Shown here piece after piece: positions 18,544 through 21,011 of a DNA stretch of 64,000 nt (within the stretch, counting starts at the first letter, position 1; each line of letters opens with the position of its first letter). The translations under genes were made by a program, and so were the position numbers. Origin of the DNA: Aidingimonas halophila (GTDB lineage Bacteria > Pseudomonadota > Gammaproteobacteria > Pseudomonadales > Halomonadaceae); NCBI RefSeq assembly GCF_900106955.1, contig NZ_FNNI01000001.1:186001-250000 (forward strand), written 5' to 3'. The notes beneath the pieces were generated by a model. It did not search any database, was not told the origin of the DNA, and saw only the letters and a program-made list of their open reading frames with translations.

Positions 18544-19032
18544 TCACGCTATGGCGAAGCGACGGCGCAACGATTGCAGCATGGTGAATAACCATGGCCA
18601 TAGTACCGCACCGATCAATGATGGCAGCAAGAATGCCAAATGGATCGAAAAAGGGCCGAACAGCGTCAACAACCACTGTTCCATTAGCTGCACGATACCC
18701 AGCAGAATGAAAACCAGTACGGCCTGCTGAAATAGCGAGTAAGCTCTGAAACGCTGATATACGAGGGCACAAAGAAACGCCAATAACGAGAGTGTCAAGG
18801 CGTTCTGACCCAGTGGGGTTCCCTCGATCAAATCCAGCAGAATCCCCATGACGAAGCCATGCATGACTCCGACCCGCAACGGGGCGGCGACACACCAGTA
18901 GATCAGGATCAGGCCCAGCCAGTCAGGACGCCACATCAACCAGCGGTCCGACATCGGCATCACCTGAAGGCACAACGCCAAGAACAAGCTGATCCATATC
19001 AGTATCCAGCCGCGCAACGCAGGAGACAGCAT
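18544..19032 (-). CDS. mreD: Rod shape-determining protein MreD
   Basis: Polytopic inner-membrane protein of the elongasome, 162 residues with about five hydrophobic segments. Conserved features are RPDWLGLILIYWCVAAPLRVGV near the N-terminus and GFVMGILLDLIEGTPLGQNALTLSLLAF. The start overlaps the mreC stop by one base (TGATG type), so it is coupled to mreC. It is the third gene of mreBCD. Confidence 0.94.
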   Translation of the reverse strand: MLSPALRGWILIWISLFLALCLQVMPMSDRWLMWRPDWLGLILIYWCVAAPLRVGVMHGFVMGILLDLIEGTPLGQNALTLSLLAFLCALVYQRFRAYSLFQQAVLVFILLGIVQLMEQWLLTLFGPFSIHLAFLLPSLIGAVLWPWLFTMLQSLRRRFAIA

Positions 19033-19904
19033 CAGCGAATCAACTCCTCTGGCGGTTCGGTAATCGAGAAGGTCTCATCCCATAGCCGATCTCCCGCTTC
19101 AGGCTGGACTGACGGAGGCGGGAACAGCAGCAGGAAATGTCTCGAGCGCTGGAGTTGCGCTACCGGTTCCGCCGTGACACTCGCGAACGGCTGACCGGGA
19201 TCATGCTCCACACCCGTCACCTTGGCGACGGGATACCCCGCAGGAAAGCGACCCGCAAGCCCGGAACTGACCAACAGATCCCCTTCCCGAATATCCGCAG
19301 TGTTAGGTACATGACGCACATCGAGAGAATTGTAACGGCCGGTACCCTGAACGATGAAACGCAGGCCGTTTCGGTTGACCTGTACCGGGAGTGCATGGCT
19401 GGCATCGGCAAGTGTCAATACCCGGCTGGAATACGCCGACACCGCCGTGACTTGCCCCACCACGCCGGACGCATCCATGACGGGCTGCCCGACATAAGCC
19501 CCATCACGTCGGCCACGGTCAATCACCATCTGGTGTGTAAAAGGATCGGAGTCCAGCGACAACAACTCCGCAGTGATGTAGTGCATTTCATCCTGCGGCG
19601 CCGCATTGAGCAATTCCCTGAGCCGGACATTGTCAGCTGTCAAACTTGCCATGCGCTGCACACGATGGGAAAGCGTAAGCAACTGTTCGCGCAGACGTCG
19701 ATTTTCTTCGACCAGTTCTCGCTGCTCGGAAAGGGCCAGTGCCCCCCAGGTCAACACATCGCTGGGTACGCTGACCAGCCACTGAATCGGTGCCACCACC
19801 GTCGTTAACTGGGCACGGACCTCTTCCATACGGGAAAAGCGGTGCTCGGCGAACATCAGCACAAAGGCCAGGATCGCACACAGCAGCATGCGATATCCTG
19901 GCAC
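19032..19904 (-). CDS. mreC: Cell shape protein MreC (true start probably further upstream)
   Basis: Bitopic elongasome scaffold that links MreB filaments to PBP2. An N-terminal transmembrane segment is followed by a coiled coil near residues 55-90 (SEQRELVEENRRLREQLLTL). The periplasmic beta domain has DRGRRDGAYVGQPVMDASGVVGQV and GDLLVSSGLAGRFPAGYPVA. The end given here is a GTG at 19904 (290 residues). The frame continues upstream nine codons as IKPLFSHGP, which matches the usual MreC start MKPLF. The expected start codon at 19931-19929 reads ATC, with GGGAGGA five bases before it, so the real protein is probably 299 residues. Confidence 0.93.
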   Translation of the reverse strand: MPGYRMLLCAILAFVLMFAEHRFSRMEEVRAQLTTVVAPIQWLVSVPSDVLTWGALALSEQRELVEENRRLREQLLTLSHRVQRMASLTADNVRLRELLNAAPQDEMHYITAELLSLDSDPFTHQMVIDRGRRDGAYVGQPVMDASGVVGQVTAVSAYSSRVLTLADASHALPVQVNRNGLRFIVQGTGRYNSLDVRHVPNTADIREGDLLVSSGLAGRFPAGYPVAKVTGVEHDPGQPFASVTAEPVAQLQRSRHFLLLFPPPSVQPEAGDRLWDETFSITEPPEELIR

Positions 19905-19964
19905 CGGTCCATGTGAGAACAGCGGTTTGATAGGCGTCCTCCCAGCAGCCCCCCTGGCAGGGCG

Positions 19965-21011
<1,047 letters not shown>

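Follow-up and report, generated by a model that had tools for sequence, protein, structure and literature searches.

mreC of Aidingimonas halophila and of most related bacteria examined very probably starts at an AUC, AUU or AUA codon

To our knowledge, few bacterial genes have been documented with a conserved start codon other than AUG, GUG or UUG. One of the known non-canonical starts is the AUU of pcnB in Escherichia coli. The infC gene, which encodes initiation factor IF3, starts at AUU or AUC and in E. coli regulates itself via IF3, as stated in the available text of the source (PMC5559785). The available part of a study of Streptomyces sigR describes a gene that starts at GTC behind a very strong ribosome site and is repressed by IF3 (PMC5472188). 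According to the same text, replacing this codon disturbed the balance between two products of the operon, and the start had been misannotated to a nearby canonical codon. The GTC start of sigR is described there as conserved in Streptomyces and not in other actinobacterial genera (PMC5472188).

The window analyzed here, a stretch of 64,000 nucleotides from the genome of Aidingimonas halophila, carries mreB, mreC and mreD on its minus strand (Table 1). Below, AUH (ATH in DNA) stands for AUA, AUC or AUU, and ATG, GTG and TTG are called canonical. Comparison with related genomes indicates that an AUH codon, ATC in the window, is very probably the start of mreC. Of the features of genes such as infC and sigR, mreC has a conserved non-NUG start and a strong ribosome site, and in the window no canonical start lies in frame ahead of its conserved N-terminus. 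Like pcnB of E. coli, it would be a gene other than infC with an AUH start. The codon class is that of infC; unlike infC, which controls itself and encodes a translation factor, mreC is an elongasome gene in the mreBCD operon. With sigR it has in common a non-canonical codon and a very strong ribosome site and, probably, an operon whose two products must be kept in proportion and an annotation misplaced to a canonical codon close by. The two differ in that sigR has GTC rather than AUH and, according to the available text, a demonstrated role of IF3.

Table 1. Positions of the mreBCD features in the window
Feature	Positions	Strand	Remarks
mreB	19965..21002	-	ATG start; TGA stop 19967-19965
Shine-Dalgarno site GGGAGGA	19937..19943	-	5 nt (CGCCT) ahead of ATC; duplex energy -10.2 kcal/mol
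mreC start codon ATC	19929..19931	-	probably read as fMet
mreC	19032..19931	-	MreC family; 299 codons counted from the ATC, then the stop
GTG, mreC codon 10	19902..19904	-	first conventional start codon downstream of the mreB stop; taken as an internal Val
ATG downstream, in mreC frame	19889-19887	-	
mreD	18544..19032	-	ATG start; 1-base overlap with mreC stop (TGATG)

The product of mreC matches the family PF04085 above the cut-off (E 6.0e-42), and a search of the own genome with mreC gave one match. In an alignment its first residue falls on the first residue of chain 7eft_A, an MreC of 367 residues. The gene lies between mreB and mreD, in the same order as in E. coli, and the mreB product is an approximately 72% match to E. 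coli mreB. From stop to stop the mreC frame spans 310 codons and includes the ATC, the GTG at 19904 and the ATG at 19889. Its upstream in-frame stop is the TGA of mreB, 11 codons (33 nt) ahead of the ATC, and none of these 11 codons is ATG, GTG or TTG. From the start the gene reads ATC AAA CCG CTG TTC TCA CAT GGA CCG GTG. The TGATG overlap at 19032 probably reflects translational coupling of mreC and mreD. No stable RNA structure was predicted around the mreC start, where the fold was no better than that of shuffles (z +1.0). Rfam gave no meaningful match at the start, only one sub-threshold hit, to a microRNA family, which scored 16.9 bits where the cut-off is 80.5. An alignment of 23 Vreelandella-like loci contains a short conserved element, GCGGU-NNNN-YGC, directly 5' of the Shine-Dalgarno run. 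It may be a small hairpin, weak and clade-specific.

The search for relatives, with one genome per species, found 216, and the best 80 of the 216 were kept. Among these 80 the highest identity was 92%, to Aidingimonas lacisalsi. The start column of the 80 named loci was located by a pattern, namely ATA, ATC, ATG or ATT followed by a Lys codon. At each of the 65 named Halomonadaceae loci (L004-L068) this column opens an I-K-P-L-F stretch, whose Ile codon is ATC at 35 loci and ATT at 30. Together with the window they form a set of 66 sequences, of which 36 have ATC as the start codon, 30 have ATT and none has ATG. The 15 more distant named loci have ATC, ATT or ATA in 14 cases and ATG in one, Gynuella (L075). 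The annotated ATG of E. coli mreC (NZ_CP047658.1) occupies the same column as the ATH of the Halomonadaceae.

Two wider samples were tallied, and all samples were drawn from within the class. A match to PF04085 is present in 341 of 370 class genomes and in 115 of 116 order genomes. The start region was read in 125 of the 341 (30 loci plus 95), drawn from the higher-scoring matches, and in 89 of the 115. The tally was made with a search model lacking the first column, and only rows with the N-terminus aligned within 3 positions were kept. This removed 24 of 125 class rows and 8 of 89 order rows, misaligned by more than 3 positions, and left 101 and 81. One genome (G001) was not counted beside locus L005. 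ATH stands in the start column of 72 class rows (ATG 14, GTG or TTG 1, other 14) and of 64 order rows (ATG 7, GTG or TTG 2, other 8). The combined 182 rows thus have ATH 136 times, ATG 21 times, GTG or TTG 3 times and another codon 22 times. When counted by family code, ATH is found in 74 of 100, ATG in 20 and both in five; the breadth differs from that of the sigR GTC, for which the available text describes conservation no wider than Streptomyces among actinobacterial genera. The rows with ATG (21/182) and with GTG or TTG (3/182) show that MreC can function without an AUH start. Part of the "other" rows seem to have a start displaced by 1-3 codons: with such a shift L173, L191, L206 and L265 read ATC or ATT, and L088, L254 and L276 read ATG. 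Row L165 has GTT in the first column of mreC and a strong site upstream; this may be a further non-NUG start, or else a fault of the assembly.

An earlier note on this DNA, made from the letters of the window, had placed the apparent start of mreC at the ATC, called such a start rare and proposed to compare the codon in other Halomonadaceae. This comparison, with ATC or ATT at all 65 loci, strongly supports the start. The note had also equated the I-K-P-L-F stretch with a usual MKPLF N-terminus. In the rows read, MKPLF is the minority form and an Ile codon the majority one (136/182). Among bacterial genes in general such a start is unusual; for the mreC genes of this class it is not.

The region around the start was then scored for canonical codons, a locus being counted as lacking a canonical start if no ATG, GTG or TTG occurred from the in-frame upstream stop through codon 5. 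By this test mreC lacks a canonical start in 33 of 65 Halomonadaceae; in 32 a canonical codon occurs somewhere in this stretch. The same test on the neighboring genes of the Halomonadaceae gave 0/62 for mreB, 0/65 for mreD, 0/61 for maf and 0/63 for rng (usable loci). For mreD and maf only this count was used, because their start calls are unreliable and their N-termini align poorly. The start of mreB is ATG in all 62 loci where it was callable, 3 of the 65 being left without a call. Among the other ATH rows a canonical start is lacking in 14/14 named, 58/72 class and 53/65 order rows; the class and order counts were obtained with a model that has Ile in the first column and with rows aligned from position 1, which favors ATH.

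Within codons 2-40 of the 66 Halomonadaceae sequences, G occupies 50% of the third positions at fourfold sites. The third base of the start codon varies between C and T in the same sequences and is never G. That all 65 named loci have ATC or ATT at this place, despite such an abundance of G, is not due to chance. If fMet is inserted, G would keep the protein the same, so that ATG seems to be counter-selected at the mreC start in Halomonadaceae.

Strength of the Shine-Dalgarno site was assessed as duplex energy with the 16S tail. The earlier note had reported GGGAGGA five bases before the ATC and no such site for the GTG at 19904; the energies agree with this (-10.2 vs -3.0 kcal/mol), and the ATG at 19889 has -5.3 kcal/mol. 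In the wider samples the median is -7.4 kcal/mol for the 136 ATH starts and -3.8 kcal/mol for 28 ATG starts (for this comparison only, the 21 ATG rows were joined by the 7 "other" rows re-read as ATG 1-3 codons upstream). The background medians 60 nt upstream are -3.1 and -3.2 kcal/mol in the ATH and the ATG group, respectively. An energy of -6 kcal/mol or stronger was found for 111 of 136 ATH starts and 9 of 28 ATG starts, which leaves 25 of 136 ATH starts with a weak site. The difference between the two groups has p 7e-9 in a rank test that ignores kinship; an independent-pairs test of site strength against start codon found 4 supported pairs only and was not significant. The core of the site lies 6-8 nt from the ATH in 102 of 136 rows, and no core was seen in 8. 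The ATH has a stronger site than the first downstream canonical codon in 65/65 Halomonadaceae and in 133/136 class and order rows. The mreC of E. coli, similar to that of the window in alignment column and in gene order, differs from it in having ATG and a duplex energy of background level (-3.0 kcal/mol). The pattern, in which the site is strong where the codon is weak and slight where the codon is strong, is consistent with a constraint on output.

The likeness to infC, suggested in the earlier note, extends to the same genome. Its infC (L216) reads GGA GAT GTA ACG ATC AAG CGG and begins with ATC, and no ATG, GTG or TTG occurs in it from the upstream stop to the conserved core. In 13 genomes of the same family, the own one included, the I-K-R start of infC is ATC in 12 and ATT in one, and in 11 of them the stretch ahead of the core is free of canonical codons. 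Six genomes of other families of the order have ATT at the matching place in five cases, the sixth being missed by the script; two of these five have GTG or ATG two codons ahead.

We consider it probable that the AUC start and its strong site are selected to hold MreC and MreD below MreB under a check by IF3. mreC would be translated from the AUC with the initiator fMet-tRNA, giving fMet-K-P-L-F-S-H-G. The fMet-tRNA would pair with two of the three bases of AUH, and the weakness caused by the mismatch at the third position would be compensated by the strong, well-spaced Shine-Dalgarno site. Purifying selection would maintain the combination of a strong site and a non-NUG codon. As a result MreC would be held low relative to MreB from the same operon, and MreD would be lowered too through the TGATG coupling. 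No measured MreB:MreC ratio was found in the literature searched. IF3 would discriminate against AUH, as the available text describes for the GTC of sigR, and thereby put MreC synthesis under a start-codon check. A broader version, in which the output of MreC and MreD follows the amount of free IF3 per ribosome in most Gammaproteobacteria, in parallel to infC, is possible but rather doubtful. If true, side-wall growth would track the state of the translation machinery via the AUH start of mreC.

The same codon could be the start and yet carry no regulation: a strong site with a weak codon may equal AUG with a weak site, so that lineages drift between the two states without any control by IF3. 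We regard this as unlikely. It accords with the mostly weak sites of the ATG rows, E. coli included (-3.0 kcal/mol), and the mostly strong sites of the ATH rows, as well as with a quick tree of 165 rows, on which the codon must have switched between ATG and ATH at least 17 times. However, free exchange is at odds with the spread of ATH over 74 of 100 family codes and with the absence of ATG from all 66 Halomonadaceae sequences, where C and T do vary at the start and half of the fourfold sites have G. An accident is a still weaker candidate. The earlier note had left room for a point mutation or a sequencing error, for which nothing speaks besides the oddness of the codon. The same codon class in 65/65 named Halomonadaceae loci and in 136/182 wider rows excludes an error or recent mutation on comparative grounds and makes its probability practically negligible. 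The retention of AUC, AUU or AUA in most of the related bacteria examined argues for a selected brake instead.

The two remaining readings deny that the Ile codon is the start, and both appear very improbable. Translation from the GTG at 19904 or the ATG at 19889 would leave the I-K-P-L-F stretch untranslated. Such a choice is what one would expect of gene finders limited to ATG, GTG and TTG, and the published numbering of P. aeruginosa MreC, as far as the available text goes, appears to begin at a GTG of this sort. Nevertheless, in the 66 Halomonadaceae sequences the silent positions of codons 2-9 vary while K-P-L-F is maintained, and the column of the GTG holds GTG in 21 and TTG in 7, i.e., a canonical codon in only 28 of 66. 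Both candidates were rejected as mreC starts, their sites being weaker and downstream starts not being conserved. The first downstream canonical codon changes its position from species to species, costs a median of 14 residues in 65 Halomonadaceae and 16 in the 136 class and order rows, and has the weaker site nearly throughout; moreover, E. coli MreC is annotated from the very column of the ATH. The opposite reading makes the Ile internal to a protein started upstream at a non-conserved codon, for example at a TTG two codons ahead, which is present in 25 of 65 Halomonadaceae. No conserved upstream start was found, since the window and many relatives have no canonical codon upstream, the TTG occurs in 25 of the 65 loci, and the upstream stop is no more than one codon away from the ATH in 13 ATH rows. 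Besides, the Shine-Dalgarno run touches the TTG or is one base off, and it stands at a normal distance from the ATH.

Among the matches listed in the literature searched, with most subscription journals outside its coverage, none describes a non-AUG start of mreC. The kind of feature is known, and mreC as its gene and the breadth of its conservation appear to be new. If the AUH start is true, non-NUG control, documented for translation and stress factors, would with mreC include a core cell-shape gene and hence cell-wall growth in most of the families sampled from this large class. Also, MreC would be annotated too short wherever gene finders permit only NUG starts; the available text on sigR makes a similar point about annotation (PMC5472188).

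A possible example of such shortening is the MreC of P. aeruginosa. Two rows of the order sample, L231 and L233, have nearly identical MreC, and both read TAG GAG CCG GTC ATC AAA. The L231 protein closely resembles chain 6zlv_A, with about 11 differences in 176 residues by alignment count. We take 6zlv and 6zm0 to be the structures of the published work on P. aeruginosa MreC. The available part of that paper names Pro114, Phe115, Arg175, Glu188 and Arg190 and a construct of residues 97-258, and describes the studied forms as lacking the first 14 residues, i.e., the cytoplasmic part and the membrane region (PMC8137920). Fourteen residues is short for a helix. All five named residues fit L231 at an offset of 16, codon 17 of L231 is GTG, and chain 6zm0 (164 residues) ends at L231 position 274, which equals 258 + 16. 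From these three points, and assuming no change of length in residues 17-94 between L231 and P. aeruginosa, the published MreC probably starts 16 codons late, at a GTG that lies within the membrane helix. Lost with these 16 residues would be a portion of this helix and the conserved motif K-P-[LI]-F.
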